This document shows, one piece after another, positions 12,154 through 30,590 of a stretch of DNA of 64,000 nt. This DNA is from Fulvivirga maritima (lineage in GTDB: Bacteria; Bacteroidota; Bacteroidia; Cytophagales; Cyclobacteriaceae), in the NCBI RefSeq assembly GCF_021389955.1, contig NZ_CP089980.1, positions 3,653,001-3,717,000 of the forward strand, in the 5' to 3' direction. Position 1 is the first letter of the stretch; every line of letters begins with the position of its first letter. The notes under the pieces are model-generated. The model did no database searches. It saw nothing but the letters and a program-made list of their open reading frames with translations, and was not told where the DNA came from. The translations under genes and the position numbers were made by a program.

Positions 12154-12744
12154 ATGGAGCAATTCTATGAAATACCTATATTTCCTTTAGCCATATTGCC
12201 TTTGCCTCATGAGCTGGTACCTCTTCATATTTTCGAGCCTCGTTTTCAGGAGATGCTGAGAGATGTAGAGGAGAAAAAGATCACATTTGGTATATATTAC
12301 AGTCATGGGCAAAATAAAGATAGGCTAGGAGGCGTAATGGAGCTAGACAGCGTTTTAAAGCGATATGAAACCGGTGAAACTGATATAGTAGCCAAATGTG
12401 TAGATGTTTTTCTAATGGCCGAGTTTTATAGTCAGTGGAAAAAGAAATTGTACCCTGGAGGTAAGGTGTATCCGCTAAATATGTTGGAGCCTGAGCCTAT
12501 GAGCAAAGGTTTTGTGGCTGATTTTAAGCGTTATATGAAGATGAAGGATGTCACTGATATCGATGACGACTTTGATATTCATGACATTGCTAACGAGCTT
12601 AATCTGGATGAAGTAGATAGAATAAAATACCTTAGATTACTTAGCAACCCTAAAAGAGAACGTTTTTTAAAGGAAAGACTGAAGTATCAAAAATTTATTC
12701 TTAATCAAGAGCAAAAAAATAAGGATACCTTTTTCCTTAATTAG
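12154..12744 (+). CDS. LON substrate-binding domain protein
   Basis: 196 residues that correspond to the N-terminal substrate-recognition domain of Lon protease without the ATPase and peptidase parts: IPIFPLAILPLP, then LHIFEPRFQEML, the hallmark start of the family. The C-terminal half is charged and helical. Such stand-alone LON-N proteins are common in bacteria; a chaperone or adaptor role is assumed, not shown. Overlaps the convergent membrane-protein gene by 4 bp. Confidence 0.85.
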   Translation: MEQFYEIPIFPLAILPLPHELVPLHIFEPRFQEMLRDVEEKKITFGIYYSHGQNKDRLGGVMELDSVLKRYETGETDIVAKCVDVFLMAEFYSQWKKKLYPGGKVYPLNMLEPEPMSKGFVADFKRYMKMKDVTDIDDDFDIHDIANELNLDEVDRIKYLRLLSNPKRERFLKERLKYQKFILNQEQKNKDTFFLN

Positions 12745-13250
12745 TGAATAGAATTTAGCTTTCTAGTGGCTCTTAAGATTTGAACTACGGGTGATATGGT
12801 GAAAATTACAGCCATAGCACCTGCCATAGACGTGAGGACGACCATCACCAAGACACTGTTAAACATCATGTTTTTAGGTGATAGTAAAAATACTGATACC
12901 AGTATTATTGAAAATACCAATAACGACCAGCCAGCGTTTTTAAGACCGAGAATTAGGCGAAACTTGAGCGTTTTGTACTTCTTTGGCACTGAATAAGGAA
13001 CGTTTTTCTGACAAGTTTTATCATAAAACCGCTTTACAGAGTCCATAGTTACAAATAGCGGGAGGAAAAAGGCCAGAGGTAAAAATACTCGTAAAATGGA
13101 CTGCTCTCCTGAAGAAAAACTGATTTGCTCAAAATTATGCAAGCCCCAATATTGCACTCCAAAATTAAGTAATAAGTTGATTATCAAGTTTATAGATGCC
13201 CTTTTGATGATGAATTGCTTTATGGGCTCAATATTCAGGATATTCATCAT
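12741..13250 (-). CDS. Four-helix membrane protein at the end of the PKS operon
   Basis: 169 residues with four hydrophobic segments (about residues 18-36, 50-68, 104-126, 133-155) separated by a basic loop (SVPKKYKTLKFR). No family recognised. Its ATG is 6 bp after the stop of the preceding alpha/beta hydrolase, so it is very probably the last gene of the polyketide operon; it could anchor the pathway or help move its lipid product, but nothing in the sequence proves that. Confidence 0.55.
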   Translation of the reverse strand: MMNILNIEPIKQFIIKRASINLIINLLLNFGVQYWGLHNFEQISFSSGEQSILRVFLPLAFFLPLFVTMDSVKRFYDKTCQKNVPYSVPKKYKTLKFRLILGLKNAGWSLLVFSIILVSVFLLSPKNMMFNSVLVMVVLTSMAGAMAVIFTISPVVQILRATRKLNSIH

Positions 13251-13256
13251 GGTAAC

Positions 13257-13994
13257 TCAAGCGTATACTGGTTCTGATAAAAACTTTTTCAGCTCTAAAG
13301 ATACCAGGCTTGGTTTGGTCATAATGAAATAATGATCTCCATCAATTTCTTTTAAAGTGGTATTGGGTGCGTGAGTAATAAGTCTGGTGGCCATATCATA
13401 ACAATCAGAATGCGTGCCATATAGTAAAAGTGTAGAGGGTTTTAATTGGCTAATGGATTCATTGTCAATGTCTTTATCGGCATCAATATCTTGAGTGATG
13501 GTAGTGGTATTCATTAATTTAAGCGTTCTCTGCTTAAGCCTGTCTTTAAATTTATCAGTCGGATTTTTACTGTTCTCATCTTCTTTCATGTGTTCCTGGG
13601 CCGTTTCGAAGGTGGGACGTATGGGGTTTGGGCATTCAATAATGCCTAGTTTATGAATCCTTTTAGGGTATTTAAAAGCAAATTTTAGTGCGATTAGCCC
13701 ACCGAAGCTAAAGCCTATGATATGTGCTTTTTTGATTTTTAAGACTGACATCAATAAAAGCAAATCCTCATTGAAATCATCAATTTTATAGTTGGAGGCA
13801 GGCATATCGGTTTTACCATGGCCTCTGATATCATATAAAATTACACGATAAGATGAAGATAGTTCTGGAGCAATGGTCAGGTAAAATTGAGCCAGGTTAG
13901 CAATAATACCATGGATCATAATTATGGTTTCTTTCCCGGATGGGTTAAGTTCCTGGTAGTGGGTTCTAAGTCCGTTTATATCAATAAATGGCAT
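13257..13994 (-). CDS. Alpha/beta hydrolase 2 of the PKS operon
   Basis: 245 residues, soluble. Alpha/beta hydrolase fold: IMIHGI oxyanion region, YDIRGHGKTD, nucleophile elbow GFSFGG (Ser near residue 93), and a late His in DGDHYFIM. It is clearly a paralogue of the operon's other hydrolase at 17833-18633 (same MPxI start, same RGHGK and SFGGLIALK blocks). Family members act as thioesterases, lipases or esterases; in this setting product release from ACP or trimming of acyl groups is the natural guess. Start overlaps the acyltransferase stop by 14 bp. Confidence 0.8.
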   Translation of the reverse strand: MPFIDINGLRTHYQELNPSGKETIIMIHGIIANLAQFYLTIAPELSSSYRVILYDIRGHGKTDMPASNYKIDDFNEDLLLLMSVLKIKKAHIIGFSFGGLIALKFAFKYPKRIHKLGIIECPNPIRPTFETAQEHMKEDENSKNPTDKFKDRLKQRTLKLMNTTTITQDIDADKDIDNESISQLKPSTLLLYGTHSDCYDMATRLITHAPNTTLKEIDGDHYFIMTKPSLVSLELKKFLSEPVYA

Positions 13995-15369
13995 ATTTTT
14001 TCACTTTTTTATTGTGCGAAGTATATAAATCAATTGTTCGAGTCTCCTTTTTCTCCAGCGTAAGGGCTTGCGAAAGTGCATCATAAGGTTTCCAGCGGCA
14101 TGCCATTTGGAGCTCGTTCATGCTTAAAGAGGCTATTTCACGCATCTGCTGGCAGGTAAGGGTATAATGGTTAGCCATAAAAGCAAAGCTCATGATTCCG
14201 TTAAGTGTGTTCACAATTACCGTATTGGCATTATACCAAGGTAAACCTACTATGGTGCCAAGCATTCGCTCAGCTTTAAAGTTTTTATATTCTAAGGGTA
14301 TGGGTATTTTTCCTAAGTTGGACAAGGTAAGGCAATGGCTCCCCTTAGTATTTTGCATGAATCGGGAAATGGCTGGTACCAAAGGATGAATAATCTCGTC
14401 CTTTGAAAGCATTTTATAGATCTTTTCTTCAGTGGTGTTAATTTTAAGATCATCCAAAACTTTTCTGGTAGTGCTCCAGAAATCAAGGTTTCGATCTCCG
14501 TTTATGGCTATTCTCACGGCAGGGGCGAAAGAAAATAGCATGTCTGGTTTAAGGTCAGGTAAGAATTTTCGGATATCAATAGGAGAGATAACTTTTAATT
14601 CCTTTTTCTTCTTTTTATTTATTACCTGATGAAACCCTCTCATGAATGCTACACAAAGAGCCGCATGTACGGTGGTATTATTTTCTTTGCAGGCAGCAAT
14701 AAGAGCTTTGGTTTGTGTTTCAGGTAGAGTCCATTTAATAGCCTGCATGGCGAATTGCTTTTTTTTGGTGAGCATATTCGCCACTTTCAGTATGTTGCCT
14801 CCTAATTTCAGGCCTAGTTTTGCATAAAATGCTTTATTTCCTTTAAGGAGATGCTTTTCGGGGATCATGCCGGCTAGATCCCCACATAAAGAATAGTTTT
14901 CCAGCTTAGTGTCAGGGTTATCTATTAAACTGAGCAGCTCTTTAATGATTACTACAAAAGAAGCACCGTCGCAGATAGCATGGGGGCTGATTATGAGCAA
15001 GTCAGACTTCTCTTTTCCTTTCACCCACAATAGCCGGATAGAGGCTCCTCGCTCCAGGTCAAAGGGTGTAGACCATTCATAATCTATCTGATCCCACCAG
15101 CTTTGTTCGTTTTTCCATGGAACAATCCGGATGGGAATGGACTTATACTTCTTGAGCACATGGTAACATGGAGAGCCATTTTTGTCTTGGCGTATAACTG
15201 ATCTGAGCAAAGGATGCTTGGTCTGCACTACCTGGAGCGCATGTTCCAATTGTCGCAGCTCAATTGTGCCGGCTATCCGGATTCCGAAATATATATTGAA
15301 TGGTTTTTTGCCATCCAGATACATGAGCCGTTCGCCAACAGAGAGCTTTCTTATGTTAATTTCATCCAT
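13981..15369 (-). CDS. PapA5-like acyltransferase (condensation-domain superfamily)
   Basis: 462 residues. The active-site motif HxxxDG is present as SPHAICDG (His130, Asp134), within the chloramphenicol acetyltransferase/condensation fold. The N-terminal LSVGERLMYLDG and the single, free-standing domain with no adenylation or carrier partner resemble PapA5-type polyketide-associated acyltransferases and WS/DGAT-like enzymes, which esterify hydroxyl groups of lipids with acyl chains carried on ACP or CoA. A C-terminal block (LSNLGKIPIP) matches the DFGWG-region equivalent, somewhat divergent. In the operon it lies between a glycosyltransferase (8 bp overlap) and hydrolase 2 (14 bp overlap), so it likely decorates the synthase product or its sugar. 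Confidence 0.75.
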   Translation of the reverse strand: MDEINIRKLSVGERLMYLDGKKPFNIYFGIRIAGTIELRQLEHALQVVQTKHPLLRSVIRQDKNGSPCYHVLKKYKSIPIRIVPWKNEQSWWDQIDYEWSTPFDLERGASIRLLWVKGKEKSDLLIISPHAICDGASFVVIIKELLSLIDNPDTKLENYSLCGDLAGMIPEKHLLKGNKAFYAKLGLKLGGNILKVANMLTKKKQFAMQAIKWTLPETQTKALIAACKENNTTVHAALCVAFMRGFHQVINKKKKKELKVISPIDIRKFLPDLKPDMLFSFAPAVRIAINGDRNLDFWSTTRKVLDDLKINTTEEKIYKMLSKDEIIHPLVPAISRFMQNTKGSHCLTLSNLGKIPIPLEYKNFKAERMLGTIVGLPWYNANTVIVNTLNGIMSFAFMANHYTLTCQQMREIASLSMNELQMACRWKPYDALSQALTLEKKETRTIDLYTSHNKKVKKYAIY

Positions 15370-16558
15370 AAACAGAAGTGTGTTGTGGTACTACATCTTC
15401 TAATAATTCTACCGCTCTTTTTTCACCTCCGGCTGCAGTAAACGAGTTACTTATAAATTTTGAGGCTTCTTTATAAGATGGGTTATTAAGTATATCCTGT
15501 ACGGCAGTTTTAAGTTGAGTGGCTTTAAACCTTTTGAAATTTAGTCGGATACCACAACCCGATTCAGCTACCTGAGAAGATACATGCGATTGATCGTAGG
15601 CAATGGGGATGGTTATGAGTGGCAATCCGTGTGTGAGAGATTCACAAACGGTATTATGGCCGCCATGGCAGACTACAGCATCCAGGTATTTTAATAATTC
15701 TAATTGTGGGATGCGAGGCTGAACGATAAAGTTTTTTGGCCATGAAGGGAATAGCTTCTCTTCTGAAACTACTACCACAGTCATAGGTTCATCGCCTAAG
15801 GCTTCTATCACTTTTGCGAAGAAGTCTTTTTTATATTGCATATCAAAAGTAGTGCCTATCGATACCAAAACCCTTGGTCCTCTGGTATTTTGAAAACGAG
15901 CCCAATTAAAAGAAAAGGCCACTGGTCGGCCTACCGTGATAGGACCTACAAACTGATAATATTCTGGGTATGTCTCGTCGCCTAAAAATTCTTTAGAGGT
16001 AAAAACGAGTGTAAGCAGTTCTGAGCAGGCGAGCGAGCTGTTTCCGGCTATGCCTAACTCTTGCTGTAATCCTACTATTTGTTCTGTTTCCCATTCTAAT
16101 ATTTTAGGCATGTCTTTCATGGCCTTGAGTGCGGTAGGAGCTGTAACTGAAGTAACATAGGGAATTCTTTTTTTCACAGCTGCAATAGCTCCGGCATACA
16201 CCTGATGGTCCGTAATTACTACATCTGCCCGCCAGCTATCAATAAACTTGCAAATGCCCGGAAACATAAACCGAGACATGGGAATGAGCACATCTTCATA
16301 CAAAAACTTAATGCTTTCTATGCCAAATGCTGTATGACCTTTTTCGGTAATCTGGTCGAAGTATTCTTTTCCGCTGGTGCCATCATCACCACTTTGGATT
16401 AGGAGTAATTCTCCTCCATCAGGAATTTGTCCGTTAAAATTGTCGGTTAAGCTTATCCAGGCTACTTTATGACCTGCCTGCAGCAGTTGTTTTCCTAAGC
16501 TTAAAGTAGGGTTAATATGCCCTGTAAAAGGAGGTACAATAAATACGAATCTTGCCAT
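15362..16558 (-). CDS. GT1/MGT-type glycosyltransferase 2
   Basis: 398 residues, GT-B fold. N-terminal FIVPPFTGHINPTLSLG carries the catalytic His of family GT1, and the C-terminal nucleotide-sugar site reads CHGGHNTVCESLTHG, then PIAYDQ. The family transfers glucose, rhamnose or related sugars to lipids, carotenoids, polyketides and macrolides. It is paralogous to the glycosyltransferase 22 bp upstream, so two sugars, or two positions, may be modified. No membrane anchor is seen; action on the cytoplasmic face is likely. Confidence 0.87.
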   Translation of the reverse strand: MARFVFIVPPFTGHINPTLSLGKQLLQAGHKVAWISLTDNFNGQIPDGGELLLIQSGDDGTSGKEYFDQITEKGHTAFGIESIKFLYEDVLIPMSRFMFPGICKFIDSWRADVVITDHQVYAGAIAAVKKRIPYVTSVTAPTALKAMKDMPKILEWETEQIVGLQQELGIAGNSSLACSELLTLVFTSKEFLGDETYPEYYQFVGPITVGRPVAFSFNWARFQNTRGPRVLVSIGTTFDMQYKKDFFAKVIEALGDEPMTVVVVSEEKLFPSWPKNFIVQPRIPQLELLKYLDAVVCHGGHNTVCESLTHGLPLITIPIAYDQSHVSSQVAESGCGIRLNFKRFKATQLKTAVQDILNNPSYKEASKFISNSFTAAGGEKRAVELLEDVVPQHTSVYG

Positions 16559-16580
16559 ATGGGTAGGTTTAGGTTAAGGG

Positions 16581-17780
16581 TTATAATACGGTAGCGGGTC
16601 TTTTATCAGCAGCAAACTGTTCTACATGGCTGGCTGCTGCCTCAGCTCCACCACAGTCTTTTAAGGATGCTTGTATCTTTAAGGCCTCTTTTTTATAGGA
16701 ATTTCCTGGTTCCAGAATTTGATCCAGTGCTTGTTTTAAAGCATCTATGCGTAGCCTTTTATACCTTATATCTATGCCGCAACCCGCTTCTTTTACTAAT
16801 GAGGCGATATAAAACTGATCATAAGCAATAGGGGTGATCACCATGGGTAATCCGTGGTAAAAGGTTTCATTTACCGTGTTAAATCCACCATGACAGATAA
16901 CGGCATTCATTTTAGGAATGATTTCACTCTGAGGTACGTATGATTGGACTATGAAATTATCTGGCCATTCTTCTATTATATCCGGATTGGTAGCACAAAC
17001 AAAGGTGTATGGCGAATCAGCAAAGGCTTCCACTACTTTAGAGAAGAATTTCTTTCTGATGTCTTCCAGCAAAGTGCCTATAGAAACATAGATTTTAGGG
17101 CTTGAAGCTTTATCCAGTCGTTCCCAGTCGAAGGTTACGGAGTTGGGTCTTCCTTTTATCAGTGGACCTACAAATTTATATTGCTTACCCAGTCCGCTGG
17201 CATCAGCAAACTCAGGAGAGGTAGATACTATGCAGAGCTCTTCAGACCTTAAAATGGGCTTGTCTAAGTCTATTCCATAAGCCTTTTGAACACCGAAAGT
17301 ATGCCCTTTTACCCAATTCTCAATTTTAGGAATATGAAAGCGGTCTATCACTTTTGGGGGTACGGCTATGGTGGTAACATAAGGAATGCCTTTGTTCACC
17401 GCCAAAATAGGAGCAGCAAAGATCAGCTCATCATGAATGATAACATCGGGTTCCCATTCTTCTACCAAACGGGTAAGGCCCGGCATGAGTAGGTGACAAA
17501 AGGGGACATAAGTCTCTTCCAATGCTAGCTTTAAGGTTTCTAGTTTGGATAGGGAAGGGCCTTTATCCTGCTTTCCCAGAATTTCAAGGAGCTCTTCCTG
17601 ATGGTCTTCTAGTTCTTCAGGCACCAGAAAGCGGCCTTTTTCAGGTACTTGTTTTTGATCTATTGGTTTTAATCCTACCCACACTACCTCATGCCCACGG
17701 GAAATAAGTTCAGCCCCCAGACTTAGTGTAGGACTTATATGTCCGAAAAAAGGAGGGACTACTATCATGAATTTGTGCAT
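16581..17780 (-). CDS. GT1/MGT-type glycosyltransferase 1
   Basis: 399 residues with the same layout as its neighbour: IVVPPFFGHISPTLSLGAEL at the N-terminus with the GT1 His, a central VSIGTL strand, and the donor-binding block CHGGFNTVNETFYHG followed by TPIAYDQ. The two copies differ widely outside these motifs, so the duplication is old and they probably have different acceptors or donors. Located 52 bp after hydrolase 1 in the operon. Confidence 0.87.
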   Translation of the reverse strand: MHKFMIVVPPFFGHISPTLSLGAELISRGHEVVWVGLKPIDQKQVPEKGRFLVPEELEDHQEELLEILGKQDKGPSLSKLETLKLALEETYVPFCHLLMPGLTRLVEEWEPDVIIHDELIFAAPILAVNKGIPYVTTIAVPPKVIDRFHIPKIENWVKGHTFGVQKAYGIDLDKPILRSEELCIVSTSPEFADASGLGKQYKFVGPLIKGRPNSVTFDWERLDKASSPKIYVSIGTLLEDIRKKFFSKVVEAFADSPYTFVCATNPDIIEEWPDNFIVQSYVPQSEIIPKMNAVICHGGFNTVNETFYHGLPMVITPIAYDQFYIASLVKEAGCGIDIRYKRLRIDALKQALDQILEPGNSYKKEALKIQASLKDCGGAEAAASHVEQFAADKRPATVL

Positions 17781-17832
17781 AAGCTCTTTGTTTGAGGCAT
17801 AGCGCCTGATGAATATTTTATTATGTTAGCAT

Positions 17833-18633
17833 TTATTGCTCCTCTAAGGCAAGGGTTTGCTCGCTCCGTTCTCTTAAAAACATAGAAAGTTCAAGCCCTA
17901 CCTGGCGGCCAGATACCATGGGCATACTATGATTGCCATCCAGATATTTCAGGCTGGAAGAGGGTAAAATGGCTGACAGCGTTTTCCCGTCTTCAGCAAA
18001 GCTTGAAGATCTGGCATATAGTAATAAAGTGTCGTTCGTAATGTGTTTTAAATCAGGATGATAAAAGAAATTTTCTTCCATTTTTAAGTCTACAGGTAAG
18101 GTGGTTTCCCGAGTAAGAAAGTGATAAGAAGAAATGCTTTTATCTACCTTTTTTCTAATGAAAGCAGCGGCACCTTCTTTTGCATTAGCATGCTGCTGCA
18201 TGTATGGTGTGATAAACTCTCGTTCATACATCTGAGCAAAACCTTCTTCGCTTATAGCCGATAAATCAGGAGCATCTATGATCATGAGTTTATCTATTTT
18301 TTCAGGGGCTATCATTGCCATTTTTAAGGCTATGAGGCCGCCAAAGCTATATCCTGCCAGGTGAACTTTTTCTAATTCATAGTGATCTATAAGGGCTTCC
18401 AAATCCTGAGTCATTTGATTCAGGTGGTAGCCGCTTTCTTCTTTACTATTCTTGCCATGGCCGCGCAGGTCATACATGAGCACCCGGTAGTTTTCGCTAA
18501 GCAGAGGAGCTATGTTGAAATAGTAAAGAGAGAGGTTCCCGAAGAGACCATGAATTAATATCACAGTGTCTTCGGAGTTACCTTCCAGCTCTTGCACATG
18601 CAGTTTTCCTGATGGTATATTGATTACTGGCAT
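17833..18633 (-). CDS. Alpha/beta hydrolase 1 of the PKS operon
   Basis: 266 residues. Alpha/beta hydrolase motifs ILIHGLFG, YDLRGHGKNS, nucleophile elbow GYSFGG and a late catalytic His in GNHSMPM. Its start overlaps the free ACP gene by 10 bp, so its product is made together with the ACP; a thioesterase acting on that ACP is a reasonable hypothesis. No thioesterase domain exists inside the two PKS proteins, so at least one of the two stand-alone hydrolases may release the chain. Confidence 0.8.
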   Translation of the reverse strand: MPVINIPSGKLHVQELEGNSEDTVILIHGLFGNLSLYYFNIAPLLSENYRVLMYDLRGHGKNSKEESGYHLNQMTQDLEALIDHYELEKVHLAGYSFGGLIALKMAMIAPEKIDKLMIIDAPDLSAISEEGFAQMYEREFITPYMQQHANAKEGAAAFIRKKVDKSISSYHFLTRETTLPVDLKMEENFFYHPDLKHITNDTLLLYARSSSFAEDGKTLSAILPSSSLKYLDGNHSMPMVSGRQVGLELSMFLRERSEQTLALEEQ

Positions 18634-18917
18634 GATTGTATAAAGTCAATTACATCTTTCAATTTCATTTCTATGATCTCTTCCAGGTTTTTATTGGTAA
18701 GCCAGCCTGTAAAGTCTATGTCCTTACCAAAGCTCTCCTTCACCTTTTCTGAGAATGAGACTATTTCAATGCTGTCCATCTCCAGGTCTGAGGTAAATGA
18801 ACTTTCTTCGGTGATATCCATATCTTCCACAAATTCTTCCCCAATGACATCGGCTATAATTGATTTCATTTCCTCGAGAATTTCATTTCTTCCGGTAAGT
18901 GTTTTTACTATATCCAT
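18624..18917 (-). CDS. Free-standing acyl carrier protein
   Basis: 97 residues, acidic, helical. The phosphopantetheine site is Ser49 in LEMDSIEI, preceded by FTSDLEMDS as in carrier proteins. It overlaps the PKS-B stop by 10 bp and the following hydrolase by 10 bp. Its linker-free sequence differs from the three PKS-A carriers (which share LSIDSIKRM), suggesting a distinct partner: loading a starter, or presenting an acyl chain to the PapA5-like enzyme. Confidence 0.9.
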   Translation of the reverse strand: MDIVKTLTGRNEILEEMKSIIADVIGEEFVEDMDITEESSFTSDLEMDSIEIVSFSEKVKESFGKDIDFTGWLTNKNLEEIIEMKLKDVIDFIQSCQ

Positions 18918-21900
18918 CCTATTACGTAGTTATTAATTAAGGTTGATTTAATCCATTTGTCTTTAATGCGGACGCTGGTGCCGTCCACGGCTTCTATTTC
19001 ATAATTTTTAGGATTGCCTTGCAGGCCTTTACCTATGCTTTTGCCGTAAGCTTCTTTGGCTGCCCAAAGCCTTGTAGCCCACTCCCAGGTGTCTTCATTT
19101 TCCGGAATAAGCGCCAGCTCACTTTCGTGGAATGACAGTTTCAGAAAGCCTTCACCTCGGTCTTCTATAATTTCTATGTCAATGCCTGGCTCACTGCTTT
19201 GAGATGCAATAGCCACGGCTATTTTGTCTTTATGAGCCAGAGATACATTGATAGGTTCAAGTTTAGTATGCTCCCCTGAAATAGTGGGTTTGCCATATTG
19301 ATCTTTCTGTACTCTTATTTCGCAAGGGTAAAGGGCACTGTCTCTCTGGTCATCGAGCTTAGCCTTAACGGCATCTTTTATGACTACTCTCCCCATGAGC
19401 CATTTCTTTCTTCTTGGCAGAGGCAAACTCTCCATGTAGTCTTTTTCAGGCTTATTAAGGTATCTTTTGTTAATAAAATCCCAAGCCGTGCTTCTTCGGT
19501 AGATGTCTTTAAAGATGAATATCCCTTCAGGAAGCTGCTCACTAAGCGGATGATCTAATACATGGCGAGAAGTACCCCATAATTTGCGATCGAAACCGAG
19601 TCTGCGGTTCGTCCAGCCATTAATGGTGGCCCAGGTTTTACCGTTTCTGTTCACCGTCATATTACAGGTGAGCAAGTCATCAGTCATTTGAGTCAGCTGG
19701 CTGGTACATTCAAAATCACCTTCCTGATCCATAAAGTCTCCAGGGAAGTTGATTTCTTTAATCCTTACGGGAAAAGCTACATGGTCTACTTCTACCGTCA
19801 TGTGAGTCCAAAGGCCAAATAACTGACCTGCATTATCTAAGAGTGATCCTTTGCCTGAGCTACCAGAAATAGTAGCAATAATGCCTTTGTCACCCATTTT
19901 TATAAAATTCTTAATACCCTGATAGGCTGGGCCATGGAACATATGGTTATCCTTATAGATATCTTCTGGCTTGATGGGCGGTGTGAGTATCTTACCTAAA
20001 TCCTCCAAAGTTGAGAGGTAAGAAGATCCATTGCCAGTTCTGACGGTAATGAGTGCGGTTGCATAATCACCAAGCGTTACGTTTACCTTTTTGCTATCTT
20101 GCCAGCTGCCTTTTAAAACCAAATGGATAGGATCAGAAACATGGGTCCATTTAAATGCTTGAATGTTTTCAATTTTCTCTATTTGCATGCCTGGCACCTG
20201 CTCTAATACGGCATCAGCCATAAGCTCTATGAGCATGGTCATAGGCACCACAGGGAAAAGGTCTTCCATATAAGGCCAACCTTCTTTTTGCTCATACATG
20301 GAGTGGTCTATCAAATACGGATACTTGTTTAATGACAGCTCCATGGCTTTTTCAAAGTCATTTGGCGTAACCTTTTCCTCCGGCTGATAAGTATAAGGTG
20401 GCGATGGAGGTGTTTCTATAGCTACTGAAGAAGAACCCATGGTGAGCTTCTGTTTCAGTACACTGCTGATTTCCTTTTGAGCACTGTTGATAGCATTAAA
20501 ATTATGATGCAATGACTGAAGTAATGGATGACCATCTTCAGCAATATATTCTTCTACTACCGTGTTTTCCGGTTTAGCAGGAGCGATAGGAGTGCTATCA
20601 AACTCATTTACCAAAGGAAAGCCTAATGATAACTTCATACTTCTGGCAGCCTTTACGGGCATGCGTAGATTGAGGAAATCAAGATCGATTTCTTTTCCTT
20701 CTACGAAAAGAGAGGCAAGCACACGCTGCAGCTGGTTGAGTGCTGTTCTTTTCGGTGAGCTGGCTGAGATAGTTTGAAAAGCTTTTCCTTTCAAGGTATC
20801 ATCAGCAAAGCCAACTAAGCCGCCAGCGCCGATTTGTAAGAAATATTTGACTTCTTCTTGTTCATGTAGCTTCTCTATCAGTTCACGAAACCGTACCGGT
20901 TGGGTTAAATGGTGAAGCGTGAGCTCTTTGATTTCTTCTATACTGTTAGGATAAAGGTCGGTAGTGGTGGCTGACCATAAAGGAATAGAAGGTTCTTTTT
21001 GAATGATAAATAGCTTATCGCGAAGCTGACTGATATAGCCTTCAAAAAACGGCGAATGAAAGCCTGATTGGAAGGGCAGTAACTGATGGAATATCTGCTT
21101 TTCATTTAAAATCTCCTTACATTTCTCTATAGCTGTAATATGCCCACAAACTATTACCTGATGAGGACAATTGTCATGGGAGAGATACAGGTTGTCAAGG
21201 TCTTTTATAATAGGTTCTATCTCGTCTATTCCGGTACCAATGACCAAAAAGTGAACGTCAGGAACGCTGATAGAATGCGGATCGAGCTGAGTGAGCATCT
21301 TTAGCACAAACTTTTCATCGCATATGCCAGAAGAGTAGCAGCCTAGCCATTCTCCCAGGCTATGACCAGCAATCAGGTCAGGAGCCACACCTAGCTTTTT
21401 AAGTGCCTGATCCAGTATCATACTGGTTTCAAATACTTTAATACTGGATTCTATTAATTCAGAGGCTTCTGCATGTTCCATCCTGGGTATGTCGAAGTAT
21501 TCAGAAACACTTTCTATATCGCTTTTTTCAAGGGCGTCTAAGCCGGGGAATAGAAAGCATATTTTATCATTTGTCTTTAGCAGAGGGTCATTTACATACC
21601 ATATATCATTTCTATTTCTCCATGATTTGCCTTTGTTAATAATTTTAATGGCCTTTTCTATTCTGTCGGGTGTAGGATCGAACAAGGCCAGCTTATGATC
21701 TCCACTACCTGCAGAGGTATCCCCTTTCTTGAGGGCATCAATAAGTGCGGCTGCAGTAGGGCGAGCCATGAGCATTACCTGGTCTTTAGATAGGTTCACT
21801 GAGCTGCCCGGAAATGATTTGGTGGATTTGTTCTCAGGAGAATTGAAGCCTTCTAAAACTACATGGGCGTTTATTCCTCCAAAGCCGAAAGCATTTACAC

Positions 21901-23221: not shown

Positions 23222-23267
23222 ATTGAATTAGGTTGTAGGTTGAAGAGGAAAAGGACAGAGTATTTTA

Positions 23268-26200
23268 CTACTCTGCCATAATCAGCACCTGACTGTCTTT
23301 TCCATATTTGATTTCGTTGACAAAGGACTCCATGCCTTCTTCTAAAGGAATGAGTGCAATGCCTCTGCGTTCGTACTCTCTGGCCAATGTAGGAGATACC
23401 ATACCGGCTCCTTTCCACGGTCCCCAGTTGATAGAGATAGTTTTGCCTTTGAATTTCTCCTTAAGTTCCCAGGCGTAAATATCTAACACACTATTGGCTG
23501 CTGCGTAGTCAGTTTGTCCTCTGTTTCCATACACGGAAGCCACACTGGAGAATAGCACTAGAAATTGAACATCATCCTTCAGTTTTTCTGCCATTACCCG
23601 TATAGGTGTTACTTTGGTTGAAAATACACGCTCGAATGACTCGGGAGTTTTGTCCTGGAAAAGCTTGTCTTCCAAAAGTCCGGCACCATGCACTACGCCG
23701 TCTATTCTTCCGTATTGATTATACAGATCATCAATAAGACCAGATAAGGCTGCTTCATTTCTGAGATCCAGAGCCTTATAGTTTACCTTAGCTCCGTTAG
23801 CTTCTAAAGAGCGAATAGTTGCCAAGATCTGGTTTCGCTTATAGATTCTGTTGGTTTTAGCTTCAATTTCGGCAGGTTTTTTCAATGAGCCTTCTTTTAT
23901 AATGGCTTTCTTGAGTTCATCTTTATCTAGCATGAAAGTGTAAGCGTCTTCAGCTTCTTCTCTAGGATCTGCAGACCTACCCACCAGCACATAATTACAG
24001 GCATATTCACGGCTGAATCGTATCATCATCTCCGCTGTAATGCCCTGCGCGCCACCCAGAACAAGTACTACTGATTCACTGTCAAGCGTAACCTCGGGGG
24101 CAGTGCCGCTGGCCAATTCTGTAGGCACCAACTCATAAGTCTGACGTTGATTGCCTTTGTAGAATACTTCTATGTGGTTGTCTTGTAAGAAAAGCTCATG
24201 AAGCATAATGTTGGCTATATCATTGTCTGGTAGCGGATTCTCCAGGTTAATAGTACGACAGTGTGTATGGGGCAACTCTTTGTTAAGACTTTTTAAGAAG
24301 CCTGAGTAGCCCTGAAAGTTCCTTAGCATACTGATGTCTTTAGACATTTTGAAGTGTGCTTTCAGATCAGAGATCACATAAATCCATTGTGCTTTTTGTG
24401 GATCTAACCGCTTGATTAATGACACAAAGTCGATGATCTGAGGCCGCTTGGAAGATTCGAAAATATCCAAAAGGATGAGTCCGTCATATCCTTTTAAGTC
24501 AGTGACTTCAGAGACTATGTCTACTTGTGCTCCGCTATTTTCTAGAAGTGATTTAGCAGATTCAGCTATTTTTCCTCCATCATTGGTAATGGCAAACTTT
24601 TTATTTTGAATAATCGATTGATTGCTGTCAATGTCCTTAGAGTTGGTTAGTTTGAACATGAGTCGAACCAATCGTTCTTTCAGCCCAGTTTTTTTAGGGA
24701 TATCTGCAGCAGGAGTTATACCATTTGTTGCTGCAGTTGTGGTAGAAGGCTCAGCTGCTGGTGCTGAGGCACTGCAAATCCAATTTACCAGACCTTGCAA
24801 CGTTTTTATTGATGCCAATTCTTCTATCAGTGCTTCCTCTGACTTGCCATTGCTTTTAAAACCACCCAATTGATTTTTCAAGTCATTGATAATCTCCATT
24901 CGTTTAATAGAGTCAATGCTTAGATCGGCTTCCATATCCAGATCCATGCCCAGCATATCTTCAGGGTACCCTGTCTTTTCACTAATAATATTGGTGAGCA
25001 TTTTTTTAACTTCTTCCTGGCTGGGTGCTCCACCACTGGTGCTGGCAGCAGGTGCCGCTTGTGTTGTCGCTGTAGGTGCAGAAGTAGTGGCAGCAGGTGG
25101 CTGAATTCTGTTTTCTAACCAGCTGATAAGTCCGCTTAAGGTTTTTATGGCAGAAAGTTCTTCAACCAGTTGCTCCTCAGACTTGTCTGTAGCTCCGAAT
25201 CCACCGAGTTTATTCTTCAGCTCTCCGATAATCTCCATTCTTTTGATAGAGTCTATGCTCAGGTCGGCCTCAAGGTCCATTTCCAGTCCTAACATATCAT
25301 CAGGATATCCCGTTTTTTCGCTTACTATTGATATTAACATGCCTTTAATGTCAATATTAGCTGTAGGGGCAGGTGCGGCTGCAGGTTGAGCTGCAGGAGT
25401 GGCTGCAGGTTGTGGAGCGTTAGCCAGGACCCAATCTACCAACCCGTTGAGTGTTTTAATGGATGCTAATTGCTCTACTACTTGTTCTTCATTTTTTCCG
25501 TTAAGGTTAAAGCCTCCCAATTTATTTTTTAACTCAGCGGTGATCTCCATTCTTTTAATAGAGTCTATGCTCAAATCTGCCTCCATATCCATATCCATGC
25601 CCAGCATGTCTTCAGGGTAGCCCGTTTTATCACTGACTATGGCCATTAAAGTGCTTTTTATGGAAGCAGCAGTTAAGGCAGGAGCTTGAGCCGGCTGTGG
25701 GGTAGAGGCCGGAATGGCTTGCTGCGTAGTGTTGGTTTTTGGCTGCTCTTGCGGTAAAGGATAATTAACAGGAGCTTTAGGAGCATGACCTAAGTAACTC
25801 AAAATAACATCTCTCTGTGCATCTACCATGGTTTTAACATTGGTGAGATAATCTTGCACTAACTTTTCAGTCTGATGATCATTAGTAGGCGTAGGAGTAA
25901 AGCTGCCATTGCTCGATAGCTTTATTTGCTTAGTGATTGGCTTGGCACCGTGCGCTGGTAATTTACCAAAAGCAGGATAAGAGTAGTGGCCGTTAACATA
26001 CCACATGGTTTTTCTTTTGGCATACTGAGCAGGGTTATCCAAATCAAGTTTTTCTACATCTCTGTCATTAAATAATTTGCTTAGTTCTACTGATCTTCCG
26101 GTAGATAGATAGGCAGCGATGCTATTCAATAAATAGGCTATACCAGAACCCGCCCTTTCGGTGGTTATAATTACTTTTTCATCATCAATTATACTTTTGG

Positions 26201-29200
26201 TTAATGAAGTGAGTACAGATCCTGGTCCTGCTTCTATAAATATTCTAGCTCCATCTGCGTACATATTAGCTACTTGCTCGGAGAATTTCACAGGATTCAC
26301 CAGGTGATCGGATAGCCTTTCTTTAATGTCCGCAGCCTCTGTAGGGTAAATAGCGGCTGTAGTGTTAGACCATACATCTACAGATGGTTTACCGAAGGCA
26401 TAATCTTCTAGTACCTTGCTGTATAGGCCCTTGGCTCCGGCCAATAGAGGACTATGAAATGCACATGCCACCGGAATAAGCTTGCAACTAACGCCTTGTG
26501 CTTTTATTTTTTCAGCGAAAGCGGTAATGGTATCTGTGGCGCCTGCCAATACCTGCTGCTTAGGAGCATTCAGATTAACCGGATATACGCCTTCTTCATC
26601 TTTTAATAAATCTTCTAGCTCATCGGTTGTAATGCTTACCGCTAACATGGTACCCGGATCACCATCAATAGCATTAAGAATAGACTGTGCCCTGGTAATA
26701 CTTAGGTCTACCAAATCATATTCATCTATAACTCCGGCAAAGCATAGAGCAGGTAGTTCTCCGTAACTGTGACCAGCCACCATATCAGGCATAATGCCCA
26801 GCTGCTTTAGGTAGGAAGCTATAGCATAATCTACCACACCCAGCAGTGGCTGAGCGTTACGAGTGTCTTTAATATTTTCCGTTTGTTCTTTTACAAGGTC
26901 ACTATCAAAGGCCGCTGAAGGAAAAAGGATTTTTTGTAAATCAGGTCTGTCTTTAAGTAACTTCCTCATTTCGGGGAAAGCAACGAACAGATCACGAGCC
27001 ATATTCACTTTTTGACTTCCCTGCCCCGGGAACATAAAGGCCACTTTACCTTCTTTAGTTTCGGTTTTGTAAATGCCTTGTTCAGAAACTCCACGACTGG
27101 TGAGTTCCAGTTTTTCCATTAGGTCATGGTAGTCATTAGCTACTATGGTAAGCTGTACAGGCTCATCATTATAGGTTGCAAGGCTATAGGCCAGGTTTTT
27201 TAATGGTGTTTTGTCATTACCTGTAAGCAGTTCTTTTACCTGATTGATCATTCTTAGGGCGTCTTCATATGACTTACCTCTAAATGCGAAAAGCTCAGCA
27301 GGCCAATGCTTCATAGTGGAGGCCTTTTGGGCTGTTTGCTCAGCAGACTGTAGAACAGCATGAAAGTTAGTACCTCCAAAACCAAAGGCGCTTACTCCGG
27401 CAGTTCGTTTGTCATCAGTCCAGATGCCCGCCTGAGTATTAAAACCGAACGGGCTGGTTAGAGCATTATAGAACGGGTTAGGGTTCTTGAGCTGTATAGT
27501 AGGAGGCTTCACGCCATGGTAAATAGATAAAGCTGCTTTAATAAGCCCCGCCAGGCCAGCGGCACATTTGGTATGGCCTATTTGCGTTTTTACTGATCCC
27601 AAGTGGGTTTGGTTAATAGTTGCGCCAGCCTGAAGCATGAGATCTGTGAGAGCACTAATTTCTGTTTTATCACCCACTACGGTGCCGGTACCATGAGCTT
27701 CTATGAGTCCGGCTTCAGCAGGGGAGATGCCTGCGTTTTCATAAGCACGTTCCAGTGCTTTTACCTGTCCACTTCTGCGAGGAGCTGTTAAGCCCAGGCT
27801 TTTGCCATCGCTGCTGCCTCCAACGCCTTTGATAACAGCATAAATTTTATCTCCATCAGCCTGGGCATCGGTAAGCCGTTTGAGAGCTACTACGGCTATT
27901 CCTTCACCCAATGCTATGCCATCGGCATCTTTATCGAAGGTCTGACAGCGGCCTTTTCTTGATAAGGCATGGGTGCTGGAGAACATCAGATAATCATTAA
28001 TGCCATTGTGGAGGTCGGCTCCACCCGCCAGCACTAATTCAGAGCGACCTAGTATCAGTTCCTGACAAGCTAGGTCTACCGCTGCAATAGAGCTGGCACA
28101 GGCTGCATCTACGGTGTAGTTTCTGCCTCCCAGATCCAGGCGGTTACTGATTCTGCCTGATATTACGTTAGCCAGTACACCAGGGAATGAATCTTCAGTG
28201 AGTTTAGGGAGCGCTTCGTCTACCTCTTTTGGTATTTCTCCAAACAGCTGAGGAAAGAAGCAGCGGAAGCCATAGCTATTGGCTAAGTCATTACCTCCTT
28301 CTGCTCCAAATATTACAGATATGTCTTCTTTATTCACTTCTTCACCTGCGTAGCCAGCATCTTCAAGTGCCTTTTTTGCTACCATTAGGCTTAGTAATTG
28401 TGTAGGCTCTATGGCTGCTAGTGATTGTGGAGGGATACCATATTCTAGCGGGTCGAAGTCAATCTGAGGAATGAAACCACCCCACTTAGAAGGCGTTTTT
28501 TCTCCGTTCATAGAGTTAGGATCATAGTATAAATCCTTGTTCCAGCGCTCGTCTGGCACTTCGGTAACACAGTCTTTACCTTCTAAGATGTTTTTCCAAT
28601 ATTCATCAATATCAGAAGCGCCTGGGTAGATACATGCCATACCTACTATGGCTACATCCAGAGATTTTTGGGTAGAAGATGGGTAATCTGGAAGTAATGC
28701 TTTTTCTATGACTGACTGATTGTTCACAGCTACATCATGGTGAAGCTCAGCCATTGGCACTATTTTATTTCTGAGCGCAGCTACTTCACCGATCATGTAC
28801 ATGCCGGAGGTGAGTTGCTCATCAGTTTTTATTTCCACTAGCCCTGCTGCTTGTCTTTCAATGCCTTTAGAGGCGATTCTCAGTCTGCCCACATTGAGTT
28901 CTTCCAGCTTCATCCAGATCTCTTTCTTATCGAGGCCTTCTTCTATCATGCGCTTTTTCTCATTATTGAAAAAGTCTGCAAAAGGAGTATTGAGGCAACG
29001 TGTTTCATGACCTGGAGCGGTTTCCAGCAGCACGGTGTCGGTATGTTCTATTGCCTGATCCTGGAATTCCTGTAAAATGGCTCCGCAGGAAACGGCCTCT
29101 TCAGTAAACAGATAACTGGTGCCCATTAATACTCCAATTTTTGCGCCTTTGGCAGCTAACGGCGCGGCCATAGTGGCTATCATGGAAGCGGAAAGGGCAT

Positions 29201-30590
29201 CATGTATGCCTCCCGCAAATATGATGTTGAAGTCTTCCGCTTTATCTTCTTCTAGCAGTCGATCGATTTGTCTTTCCCATAAAACTAGGCTGGAGAGTGG
29301 GCCTACGTGTCCACCACATTCTCTTCCTTCGAAAACAAAACCTTTGGCTCCTTCTTTCAGATACATGTCTAGCAGGCTGGTTGAGGGCACATGAAGAAAG
29401 GTTTTAATTCCTAATTCTTCTAAGGGCTTGGCTTGAGAGGGTCTGCCGCCAGCAATAAGTACTACCGGGGGCTTCGCGTCTTTGATATACTTCATTTGCT
29501 CATCTCTGAGTTCCTGAGGGGCAAAGCCAAGAATACCCACTCCCCAGGTTTTATCGCCAGCCAGCTTTTTGGTGTTTTCTATCATGTCAATAGCTTTCTG
29601 TCCTTTTACCAGGGACAGGGCGATAAAGGGTAAACCTCCGGCCTCAGCTACAGCATTGGCAAACTCAGGTTCATCACTCACCCGGGTCATAGGTCCCTGG
29701 GCGATAGGATATTTTATATTGAAGGTGCTGGCGAAAGCATTGCCAGGAGCAAGGACAGGGATGGATTTGGCTTGTTTAATATGAGCGTGAATAGCTTCCT
29801 GAAGACCTCGAACCATTTTTTTGATGGTGTTGAATTTAGCCTTTAGGTTTCTGGCTATATTAATATCCTGACCTATAGTTATGATAGATTCGCTAATATC
29901 TAAGCCACCAAGTAAGGGCTCCAGATCCTTAAAAGTAGGAGCTTCTGGTAGTTTAGGTGAGTTAGGCCTAATCAATACACGGTGACCGTCTATGAGCTTG
30001 GTATCAGTGCCATCTACTTTGCTTAGTGTGTCTTTTAATGCTTGTGGCAGTTTACTTTCGCTGAAGAGAGCCAGCTGACTGTCTAATACTACACCCGAGG
30101 CTCCTGCCATAATGAGAGCCGGAGAGGTATGTAAACCAGCACCACCCTGAATTAAAATGGGTAAAGAAATAACCTCTTTAATCCTTTGGAATAAAATGAA
30201 ACTAGACTCATAGGCTACTTTGCCAGCACTTTCATTACCTTTTATAATGATAGCATCGGCTTGTTTATCCTGCGCTTCTTTGGCCTCTGTAGCATTAGTA
30301 ACTTGTATATACCACTCCTTGCCTTTAGGGAGGGTAAGGTTTACTGTGCTGGAAGAGATGACAGAAGTGACTTGCTCTGGAAGTTCCAGATCAGCTAATT
30401 CTTGTGTTTCAATACAAACGCCGAATGGTTTGTAAGTTTTTTCAGTAAGTAGATTTAGAGCCTCTATGGCTTTTTCTTTGTTTCTACCCAGATGTAATAC
30501 TGGATAGGCAGCGGTTTTCAAAATAGAGAGTACAAGGCTTACATCTGGATACTCACATGGAGTAACCATAAAAATTTTATACATGCTCAT
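23268..30590 (-). CDS. Polyketide synthase A: ER(NPD)-KS-AT-ACP-ACP-ACP-KR
   Basis: 2440 residues, first gene of the operon. Residues 1-620 form the 2-nitropropane-dioxygenase/PfaD-type flavin enoyl reductase region: a degenerate TIM-barrel half (ILIQGGAGLHTSPALIMAG) precedes a full one (PIAQGPMTRVSDEP near 295, EGRECGGHVGP near 423). KS is at about 640-1075 with Cys831 in DAACASS, HGTGT and QIGHTKCAAG. AT has Ser1275 in GHSYGE and CAFHSP, a malonyl-type signature. Three tandem carriers joined by Ala/Pro linkers have Ser1677, Ser1781 and Ser1894 in LSIDSIKRM. The KR (about 2010-2440, including its structural part) has LVLGGAQGITA and Tyr2362 in YAAANS. Domain order resembles PUFA-synthase-like secondary-lipid synthases, but the ER is fused at the N-terminus and DH is supplied by PKS-B. 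Probably iterative. Confidence 0.93.
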   Translation of the reverse strand: MSMYKIFMVTPCEYPDVSLVLSILKTAAYPVLHLGRNKEKAIEALNLLTEKTYKPFGVCIETQELADLELPEQVTSVISSSTVNLTLPKGKEWYIQVTNATEAKEAQDKQADAIIIKGNESAGKVAYESSFILFQRIKEVISLPILIQGGAGLHTSPALIMAGASGVVLDSQLALFSESKLPQALKDTLSKVDGTDTKLIDGHRVLIRPNSPKLPEAPTFKDLEPLLGGLDISESIITIGQDINIARNLKAKFNTIKKMVRGLQEAIHAHIKQAKSIPVLAPGNAFASTFNIKYPIAQGPMTRVSDEPEFANAVAEAGGLPFIALSLVKGQKAIDMIENTKKLAGDKTWGVGILGFAPQELRDEQMKYIKDAKPPVVLIAGGRPSQAKPLEELGIKTFLHVPSTSLLDMYLKEGAKGFVFEGRECGGHVGPLSSLVLWERQIDRLLEEDKAEDFNIIFAGGIHDALSASMIATMAAPLAAKGAKIGVLMGTSYLFTEEAVSCGAILQEFQDQAIEHTDTVLLETAPGHETRCLNTPFADFFNNEKKRMIEEGLDKKEIWMKLEELNVGRLRIASKGIERQAAGLVEIKTDEQLTSGMYMIGEVAALRNKIVPMAELHHDVAVNNQSVIEKALLPDYPSSTQKSLDVAIVGMACIYPGASDIDEYWKNILEGKDCVTEVPDERWNKDLYYDPNSMNGEKTPSKWGGFIPQIDFDPLEYGIPPQSLAAIEPTQLLSLMVAKKALEDAGYAGEEVNKEDISVIFGAEGGNDLANSYGFRCFFPQLFGEIPKEVDEALPKLTEDSFPGVLANVISGRISNRLDLGGRNYTVDAACASSIAAVDLACQELILGRSELVLAGGADLHNGINDYLMFSSTHALSRKGRCQTFDKDADGIALGEGIAVVALKRLTDAQADGDKIYAVIKGVGGSSDGKSLGLTAPRRSGQVKALERAYENAGISPAEAGLIEAHGTGTVVGDKTEISALTDLMLQAGATINQTHLGSVKTQIGHTKCAAGLAGLIKAALSIYHGVKPPTIQLKNPNPFYNALTSPFGFNTQAGIWTDDKRTAGVSAFGFGGTNFHAVLQSAEQTAQKASTMKHWPAELFAFRGKSYEDALRMINQVKELLTGNDKTPLKNLAYSLATYNDEPVQLTIVANDYHDLMEKLELTSRGVSEQGIYKTETKEGKVAFMFPGQGSQKVNMARDLFVAFPEMRKLLKDRPDLQKILFPSAAFDSDLVKEQTENIKDTRNAQPLLGVVDYAIASYLKQLGIMPDMVAGHSYGELPALCFAGVIDEYDLVDLSITRAQSILNAIDGDPGTMLAVSITTDELEDLLKDEEGVYPVNLNAPKQQVLAGATDTITAFAEKIKAQGVSCKLIPVACAFHSPLLAGAKGLYSKVLEDYAFGKPSVDVWSNTTAAIYPTEAADIKERLSDHLVNPVKFSEQVANMYADGARIFIEAGPGSVLTSLTKSIIDDEKVIITTERAGSGIAYLLNSIAAYLSTGRSVELSKLFNDRDVEKLDLDNPAQYAKRKTMWYVNGHYSYPAFGKLPAHGAKPITKQIKLSSNGSFTPTPTNDHQTEKLVQDYLTNVKTMVDAQRDVILSYLGHAPKAPVNYPLPQEQPKTNTTQQAIPASTPQPAQAPALTAASIKSTLMAIVSDKTGYPEDMLGMDMDMEADLSIDSIKRMEITAELKNKLGGFNLNGKNEEQVVEQLASIKTLNGLVDWVLANAPQPAATPAAQPAAAPAPTANIDIKGMLISIVSEKTGYPDDMLGLEMDLEADLSIDSIKRMEIIGELKNKLGGFGATDKSEEQLVEELSAIKTLSGLISWLENRIQPPAATTSAPTATTQAAPAASTSGGAPSQEEVKKMLTNIISEKTGYPEDMLGMDLDMEADLSIDSIKRMEIINDLKNQLGGFKSNGKSEEALIEELASIKTLQGLVNWICSASAPAAEPSTTTAATNGITPAADIPKKTGLKERLVRLMFKLTNSKDIDSNQSIIQNKKFAITNDGGKIAESAKSLLENSGAQVDIVSEVTDLKGYDGLILLDIFESSKRPQIIDFVSLIKRLDPQKAQWIYVISDLKAHFKMSKDISMLRNFQGYSGFLKSLNKELPHTHCRTINLENPLPDNDIANIMLHELFLQDNHIEVFYKGNQRQTYELVPTELASGTAPEVTLDSESVVLVLGGAQGITAEMMIRFSREYACNYVLVGRSADPREEAEDAYTFMLDKDELKKAIIKEGSLKKPAEIEAKTNRIYKRNQILATIRSLEANGAKVNYKALDLRNEAALSGLIDDLYNQYGRIDGVVHGAGLLEDKLFQDKTPESFERVFSTKVTPIRVMAEKLKDDVQFLVLFSSVASVYGNRGQTDYAAANSVLDIYAWELKEKFKGKTISINWGPWKGAGMVSPTLAREYERRGIALIPLEEGMESFVNEIKYGKDSQVLIMAE

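Follow-up and report, generated by a model that had tools for sequence, protein, structure and literature searches.

A nine-gene operon of Fulvivirga maritima with a two-protein iterative polyketide synthase that probably makes a glycosylated, acylated long-chain lipid

An operon for a putative secondary lipid

We analyzed a stretch of 64,000 nucleotides of Fulvivirga maritima (hereafter the window; bases 3653001-3717000 of a single-contig, 6.39 Mb genome), which carries an operon of nine genes, all on the minus strand from position 30590 to 12741, with neighbours overlapping or spaced by no more than 52 bp. It encodes two large polyketide synthase (PKS) proteins, PKS-A and PKS-B, together with a set of small tailoring genes, and we consider it probable that this is a secondary-lipid cluster of Bacteroidota making a diglycosylated, ester-acylated long-chain lipid. 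An initial annotation of the same DNA had counted ten genes; its coordinates, strand and spacing hold, and the number of genes is nine. The functions it had named beside the two synthase proteins, namely a free acyl carrier protein (ACP), two hydrolases, two GT1-family glycosyltransferases (GTs), a PapA5-like acyltransferase and a membrane protein, were confirmed.

The PKS-A/PKS-B synthase

Judging from motifs and predicted folds, PKS-A and PKS-B are one fully reducing iterative set with its own phosphopantetheinyl transferase (PPTase), comprising two ketosynthases (KS), two acyltransferases (AT), three ACPs, one ketoreductase (KR), one dehydratase (DH) and one FabK-like enoyl reductase (ER). 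PKS-A scores above the cut-off of the PfaA-type synthase subfamily (TIGR02813; 1153.2 bits against 1010.1), and PKS-B lies below it (454.6 bits). The second His motif of the PKS-A ketosynthase, read by eye in the translation, is KTQIGHTKCAAG. The catalytic check of the KR covered YAAAN alone, and motifs described here as intact are those that were checked and not every catalytic residue. In PKS-B, the KS keeps DAACASS and EAHGTGT and the AT keeps GHSLGE with its serine, the latter domain being the weaker match in Pfam (40.2 bits against a cut-off of 32.7).

The DH region of PKS-B had no match in Pfam, and residues 860-1437 were modelled with AlphaFold (mean pLDDT 84.5, 28-row alignment). The model resembles PKS dehydratases (best Foldseek match 5hst, E 9.8e-13) and, in its PPTase part, Sfp (4mrt, E 9.8e-10). 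The DH His, Asp and Gln columns are identical in 28/28 rows, as are the Asp, Glu and Lys columns of the PPTase. Within the modelled part, a single DH double hotdog spans residues ~956-1210 in place of the two DH/isomerase domains by which a polyunsaturated fatty acid (PUFA) synthase is recognized. The PPTase carries motifs P1a (YGKP) and P1b' (VSLAH) and lacks P0 (hRxhLS); a P1b'-like string is found in all 28 rows of the C-terminal alignment, and a P0-like string in one. The KS-AT-DH-PPTase architecture first proposed for PKS-B is thus upheld, and the domain search that the initial annotation had suggested recovered the named functions with Pfam (here KS, AT and PPTase), the DH being recovered by AlphaFold and Foldseek.

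A tandem of FabK-like barrels in PKS-A

PKS-A had been read as ER-KS-AT-3xACP-KR, and Pfam returned an NMO/FabK-type ER, KS, AT, three PP-binding stretches and KR; the single N-terminal barrel of that reading is in fact two. Indeed, the AlphaFold model of residues 1-640 (pLDDT 87.7, pTM 0.89) places two successive beta-alpha (TIM) barrels at about residues 1-206 and 285-495. The first barrel aligns to the second (hhalign E 2e-8, probability 95.4, 20% identity), and the N-terminal 238 residues alone match the FabK model (E 2.9e-9, residues 40-200). The catalytic His is present in 29/29 rows of the second barrel and in 0/29 rows of the matching column of the first, which holds K in 13, L in 6, R in 3, T in 2 and single other residues in five.

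Against the N-terminal 640 residues, the NCBIfam FabK model scored 148.5 bits, below its cut-off of 453.1, and was the only enoyl reductase among five models listed at E up to 0.1; the model library searched presumably included PfaD. Foldseek returned FabK/NMO structures at E about 1e-14, and the best PfaD at E 3.3e-7 with 11% identity. By sequence and predicted fold, the ER of PKS-A is FabK-like and not PfaD-like, the latter being the type expected of a PUFA synthase. A published counterpart is named a fused pfaDA (PMC13291983; statements from this paper and from PMC3098273, PMC13311796, PMC11804610, PMC10459008 and PMC9248904 refer to their accessible excerpts), whereas the fold data of the window point to a FabK-like ER.

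Both barrel profiles were matched in 5 of the 12 loci searched, from Streptomyces (L034), Beijerinckia (L035), Rhodobacteraceae (L036), Methylosinus (L037) and Hydrocarboniphaga (L116). The first barrel was matched only in part in L036, and L116 is itself a row of the profile, leaving four independent matches. No barrel was matched in the other seven loci, two of which (L001, L004) are 3.7-kb pieces.

In thraustochytrid PUFA synthases, two TIM-barrel ERs are reported to form a heterodimer; the accessible text of that paper does not mention a single-chain ER tandem with a dead partner (PMC13311796). Tentatively, and at somewhat less than even weight, we suggest that PKS-A has a built-in asymmetric ER, with a dead FabK-like barrel fused before an active one, as the intramolecular counterpart of the thraustochytrid two-ER dimer. 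The cluster would make an undescribed class of envelope lipids scattered across Bacteroidota, very-long-chain diglycosides with up to three acyl groups set by PapA, and the tandem would mark a wider synthase clade (Streptomyces, Hydrocarboniphaga, Beijerinckia, Methylosinus and, in part, Rhodobacteraceae). We found no description of this ER anatomy in the open-licence literature. The tandem raises the question of whether these synthases need their pseudo-enzyme partner, which is close to the one recently posed for thraustochytrid PUFA synthases (PMC13311796).

Tailoring enzymes

The two GTs belong to orthogroups that we call GT1 and GT2. Both match the macrolide glycosyltransferase (MGT) model TIGR01426 (180.9 and 179.6 bits) below its cut-off of 260, and the solved relatives of the GT2-orthogroup enzyme include YjiC. 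In a quick FastTree of 155 GT rows, 76 fell in a GT1 clade and 77 in a GT2 clade, with two outside. Fused GTs of 798-812 aa occur in clusters of Chryseobacterium, Flavobacterium and Sphingobacterium (L067, L073, L077 and 22 other loci), and their N and C halves fall one in each clade.

The acyltransferase carries the HxxxDG motif (PHAICDG), which is kept in 147/155 PapA rows, and matches PapA_C (PF16911) with 34.2 bits against a cut-off of 30. It reached 31.2 bits with the NCBIfam PapA5 model, whose cut-off is 396, and is therefore PapA5-like but not PapA5 by that model; among solved structures, it is matched best by a phthiocerol/phthiodiolone dimycocerosyl transferase (E 6.5e-20). The first hydrolase, hyd1, matched no solved structure at E up to 1e-15. 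The second, hyd2, lies at the same place in the sister genome G286, and a second hydrolase was found within the run in 0/80 related loci.

Recurrence of the gene set

A scan with the AT-DH-PPTase alignment returned at least 593 stretches and 478 relatives, of which the best 80 were kept; these are the closest and not a random sample, and the fetched stretches reached about 1 kb ahead of PKS-A and a few kb beyond the run. The carriers among the best 80 are Chitinophaga, Dyadobacter, Pedobacter, Mucilaginibacter, Sphingobacterium, Chryseobacterium, Flavobacterium, Niabella, Siphonobacter, Apibacter, Aquimarina and others, together with one Hydrocarboniphaga and one Pseudonocardiales. The arrangement PKSA-PKSB-ACP-hyd-GT2-GT1-papA-papA-mem was found in 28/80 loci and, with a fused GT, in 22 more; this exact order, with separate or fused GT, therefore occurs in 50/80, and the remainder differ by small changes. 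Both GTs are present in 75/80 loci (fused in 25), at least one PapA (one to three genes) in 71/80, a membrane-protein homologue within the run in 58/80, and an ACP directly after PKS-B in 79/80. Five loci do not have the full pair of GTs (L038, L105, L112, L116, L117), L105 and L112 being cut by contig ends. The window and G286 differ from the other loci in their GT gene order, single PapA and second hydrolase. No further gene family was present in more than 9/80 loci; the fetched stretches accordingly showed no exporter or regulator common to the clusters, and the reading that a transporter or regulator belongs to the unit was rejected.

The recurrence of the same gene order is more than chance. 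The conservation of gene neighbourhood, which the initial annotation had proposed to look for in Cytophagales, was found, but across Bacteroidota: within the window's taxonomic order only 2/390 genomes carry the PKS-B C-terminus, both of the window's genus, where the count is 2/15. The earlier statement that the combination could be matched to no characterised system is to be qualified in that the arrangement recurs in other Bacteroidota and the architecture has been published, although its product is uncharacterised.

The cluster is recurrent but patchy. It is carried by 56/98 genomes in the genus of G590 and by 16/60 in that of Chitinophaga sp. CF118 (L039). An even sample of the phylum gave 18 matching genomes out of 395, only four of which (the window's, G590, G644 and G625) matched across the whole DH-PPTase query, the other 14 matching in the PPTase part or little more. 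Dyadobacter and Siphonobacter, usually placed in Cytophagales, carry the cluster, and a broadly defined Cytophagales as the window's order would lead one to expect more than the 2/390 genomes; either the taxonomy applied assigns these two genera to a different order, or they are absent from the sample.

Comparison with known systems

The window cluster appears to be of Type N among the secondary lipid synthases of Shulse and Allen (2011), by the text description of that type; it was defined from Chitinophaga pinensis and Chryseobacterium gleum, and its product was given as unknown, with a suggested role in C. pinensis resting bodies (PMC3098273). Other Chitinophaga and Chryseobacterium species carry a window-type cluster and group with the window in the KS tree. 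The PPTase agrees as well, having P1b' (hShxH) without P0, although this is common to Types M, N, O, P, R, S and T and does not single out Type N, and P1a (xGxP) is shared by all types (PMC3098273). No word starting with 'glycosyl' occurs in that paper, whereas the window cluster has two GTs, and the accessible text describes neither the ER nor any tailoring enzymes of Type N. The cluster thus fits a variant of a synthase kind that is known but uncharacterised. Among Bacteroidetes cluster families, 12/306 had known references (PMC9248904).

Type P, represented by ArsABCD of Azotobacter and by Beijerinckia (PMC3098273), makes chains of C22-26 in Azotobacter according to the same source and of C23-C25 according to PMC4824345. 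The PKS-A homologue of Beijerinckia has the same tandem FabK-like barrels and a DH-PPTase partner, and Beijerinckia and Methylosinus share the wider PKS-A KS clade of the window. The window differs in that PKS-B has an added KS-AT, that the operon adds two GTs, PapA, ACP and hydrolases, and that Pfam found no type III PKS among its nine genes, on which ground an Ars-type phenolic lipid cluster was rejected.

Fused pfaDA and pfaBC-PPTase proteins in Aquimarina sp. TRL1, Flavobacterium sp. N502540 and Renibacterium have, by their text description, the two-protein architecture of the window; the Aquimarina and Flavobacterium clusters are joined to nonribosomal peptide synthetase (NRPS)/PKS genes, and the accessible text does not mention the GT/GT/PapA set for these clusters (PMC13291983). 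The window operon contains no NRPS genes, and an NRPS hybrid was rejected. Its nearest relative, L038, belongs to Aquimarina, for which an NRPS hybrid has been published; NRPS genes were not searched for in L038.

Heterocyst glycolipid (hgl) islands also combine a PUFA-like synthase with a glycosyltransferase (PMC11804610), although their tailoring enzymes differ from those of the window. In C. herbae pc1-10, antiSMASH reported a region 'hglE-KS, T1PKS, terpene' on the second contig (495527-554653) with no known match (PMC10459008), and locus L080 of this strain (contig NODE_2, 514120-536771) lies within it if the contigs are the same, as their names suggest. A plasmid cluster of Streptomyces sp. 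NBC_01243 (L034) has PKS-A, PKS-B, ACP, hydrolase and glycosyltransferase in the window's order; unlike the window, it has one GT and a methyltransferase, and no match to PapA or the membrane protein.

Proposed product and order of steps

We propose that the PPTase would arm the ACPs and the AT load malonyl units, after which KS, KR, DH and ER would run repeated full cycles, as in the Ars (Type P) synthase by analogy, to give a chain that is long and largely saturated. Chain length and saturation are predicted on the basis of the ER, the presence of one DH and the relatedness to Ars. The free ACP and hyd1 may then receive or edit the completed chain, the GT2-type enzyme would add a first sugar and the GT1-type enzyme a second, and PapA would add an acyl group last, with the membrane protein probably placing the lipid in the envelope. 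The weakest step is the acceptor of the first sugar, which we guess to be a retained chain hydroxyl.

This order (chain on ACP, first sugar, second sugar, acylation) is suggested by nested tailoring gene content. L038 has a GT2-type enzyme with a membrane protein, no GT1, and no PapA match genome-wide at E 1e-10; L102, L104, L110 and L114 have both GTs, and no PapA in the fetched stretch.

Of the glycolipid first proposed, the PUFA-synthase-like pair feeding GTs and a PapA-type acyltransferase is borne out by domains, motifs and synteny; the glycosylated, acylated product remains a prediction, and no product of the cluster or its relatives was found in open-licence papers. Several points weigh against our proposal. 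None of the operon genes is an obvious source of the hydroxyl required by the first GT. Both GTs lie below the MGT subfamily cut-off, and MGT-type enzymes also glycosylate macrolides and small phenols. The active-looking KS-AT of PKS-B is missing from the DH-PPTase partners of Beijerinckia and Methylosinus, and because of this addition the chain may differ from Ars in length and saturation. Where other clusters have two PapA, the window has a single one and an additional hydrolase, the absence of PapA from the four two-GT clusters holds for the fetched stretches, and the L038 product could be a different one (a peptide hybrid) and not an early stage.

If the diglycosylated lipid is indeed the product, some Bacteroidota genera hold a conserved glycolipid pathway for which we found no description in the open-licence literature. 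The nested gene content yields an explicit order of steps that can be tested, and the unit should be easy to delete or move thanks to the fused GT gene and a clean empty site (see below).

Alternative readings

PapA could instead be the releasing enzyme, transferring the chain from ACP to a sugar acceptor that the two GTs have assembled, so that the lipid would be an acyl ester of a disaccharide whose chains, one to three, match the PapA genes in number. PapA5 transfers mycocerosate to phthiocerol from Mas, and the nearest solved structure here is of the PapA5 type; the presence of one to three PapA per cluster and the lack of a clear release domain in the PKS proteins also speak for this scheme. 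We nevertheless hold it to be unlikely, given that clusters without PapA exist (the four two-GT clusters in their fetched stretches, and L038 throughout its genome), which argues against a general release step. More doubtful still is a small polyketide product, whether antibiotic, aromatic or polyene, for which the GTs and esterase-like hydrolases would provide macrolide-type tailoring or self-resistance. The matches of the GTs to macrolide glycosyltransferase models and of the hydrolases to macrolide esterase models, which would favour it, are all below cut-off, and an iterative, fully reducing synthase with three tandem ACPs fits it poorly, as does the lack, in the fetched stretches, of any further family in more than 9/80 loci and hence of a shared exporter or regulator.

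We regard it as very improbable that the synthase makes a PUFA of the eicosapentaenoic (EPA) or arachidonic type for phospholipids, with the GT and PapA genes as unrelated passengers. PKS-A does pass the PfaA subfamily cut-off, and Bacteroidota have PUFA synthases (Type D, PMC3098273). On the other side stand the one DH instead of two, the missing PfaD-type ER, a PPTase with P1b' (VSLAH) and without P0, a KS clade of its own, and the retention of both GTs with the synthase in 75/80 and of PapA in 71/80 loci. A plain PUFA synthase was rejected on the DH, the FabK-like ER and the separate clade.

Evolutionary history and genomic site

In the KS tree, the window's closest neighbour is G286 and its next the Aquimarina contig L038, for both synthase proteins, PKS-A and PKS-B (99/91 and 100/99), beside other Bacteroidota. 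The outer branches of PKS-A are, in order, Streptomyces/Hydrocarboniphaga, Rhodobacteraceae, Beijerinckia/Methylosinus and then Persicobacter/Azospirillum/S. albogriseolus. The tree comprises neither a verified HglE nor C. pinensis and C. gleum sequences, and the long rows L102 PKS-B, L120, L118 and L036 are placed unsurely. Among the matches listed, PKS-B is closest (53%) to an uncultured Aquimarina contig. The KS tree places Sphingobacterium puteale with Chryseobacterium and not with Pedobacter, suggesting transfer between families. The PKS-B KS of L102 (Apibacter muscae) is very divergent (30% identity, end branch 2.07) beside a PKS-A KS of 70% identity, and this PKS-B may be a partner subunit without condensing activity of its own.

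The genes flanking the operon, icmF and a LON-like gene, adjoin (8-272 bp, aligned ends) in 9 of the 13 non-carriers of the genus, a clean empty site which suggests that the operon was probably gained as a unit. In two of the others the flanks lie on different contigs, and in the last two at least one flank was missing from the search results. An icmF tree of 14 rows joins the two carriers as sisters (100/100), and a single gain of the 18.5-kb unit is the simplest reading, losses elsewhere requiring more events. In 4-kb blocks, the G+C content is 0.405-0.437 between 16 and 32 kb and 0.362-0.399 in the remaining blocks, a difference too weak alone to indicate transfer. Coordinates of all features are collected in Table 1.

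Table 1. Positions of the operon genes, synthase domains and flanking genes in the window
Feature	Position	Strand	Basis
PKS-A, 2440 aa, (pseudo-ER)-ER-KS-AT-3xACP-KR	23268..30590	-	Pfam; PfaA subfamily model; AlphaFold model
Degenerate FabK-like TIM barrel without catalytic His, residues 1-206	29973..30590	-	AlphaFold, hhalign, alignment
FabK-like ER barrel and lid, residues ~285-630, GRECGGHVG with H428	28701..29738	-	NCBIfam FabK, Foldseek
PKS-A ketosynthase	27342..28667	-	PF00109/PF02801; DAACASS, EAHGTGT
PKS-A acyltransferase	26187..27038	-	PF00698 E 1.5e-33; GHSYGE
PKS-A three tandem ACPs	24771..25673	-	PF00550, three stretches; LSIDSI x3
PKS-A ketoreductase	23412..24071	-	PF08659 E 2.7e-36; YAAAN
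PKS-B, 1437 aa, KS-AT-DH-PPTase	18908..23221	-	Pfam, motifs; DH and PPTase folds by model/Foldseek
Free acyl carrier protein	18624..18917	-	PF00550
Alpha/beta hydrolase hyd1, nucleophile motif GYSFGG	17833..18633	-	PF00561
Glycosyltransferase, orthogroup GT1 (GT1 family, MGT-like)	16581..17780	-	PF00201; TIGR01426 below cut-off; quick tree
Glycosyltransferase, orthogroup GT2 (GT1 family, MGT-like)	15362..16558	-	PF00201; quick tree
PapA5-like acyltransferase, PHAICDG	13981..15369	-	PF00668 and PF16911, above cut-off
Second alpha/beta hydrolase hyd2	13257..13994	-	PF00561
Small membrane protein, four hydrophobic segments, no Pfam family	12741..13250	-	Sequence
LON-like gene, operon flank	12154-12744		Empty-site comparison
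icmF (fused methylmalonyl-CoA mutase), operon flank	31249-34629		Empty-site comparison

A Bacteroidetes promoter pattern, sought upstream of PKS-A, had one match in the window against 3.63 expected, and this lies within the membrane-protein gene. Sigma-70-like sites numbered 35 (43.0 expected) and terminator-like sites 21 (17.9 expected), and a scan of viral contigs gave no match.

A DDE_Tnp_1_4 transposase lies at window positions 41292-42611, ~10.7 kb beyond the upstream end of the operon. Elsewhere in the genome, large KS frames occur at 569661 (L001, 2041 aa), 3516898 (L004, 4575 aa) and 3530870 (L002, 812 aa), that is, ~3.1 Mb, ~148 kb and ~134 kb from the operon, respectively. Persicobacter sp. 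JZB09 (L119) has three ketosynthase stretches on an unannotated 1.58 Mb replicon listed as a plasmid, one of them near the PKS-A clade.

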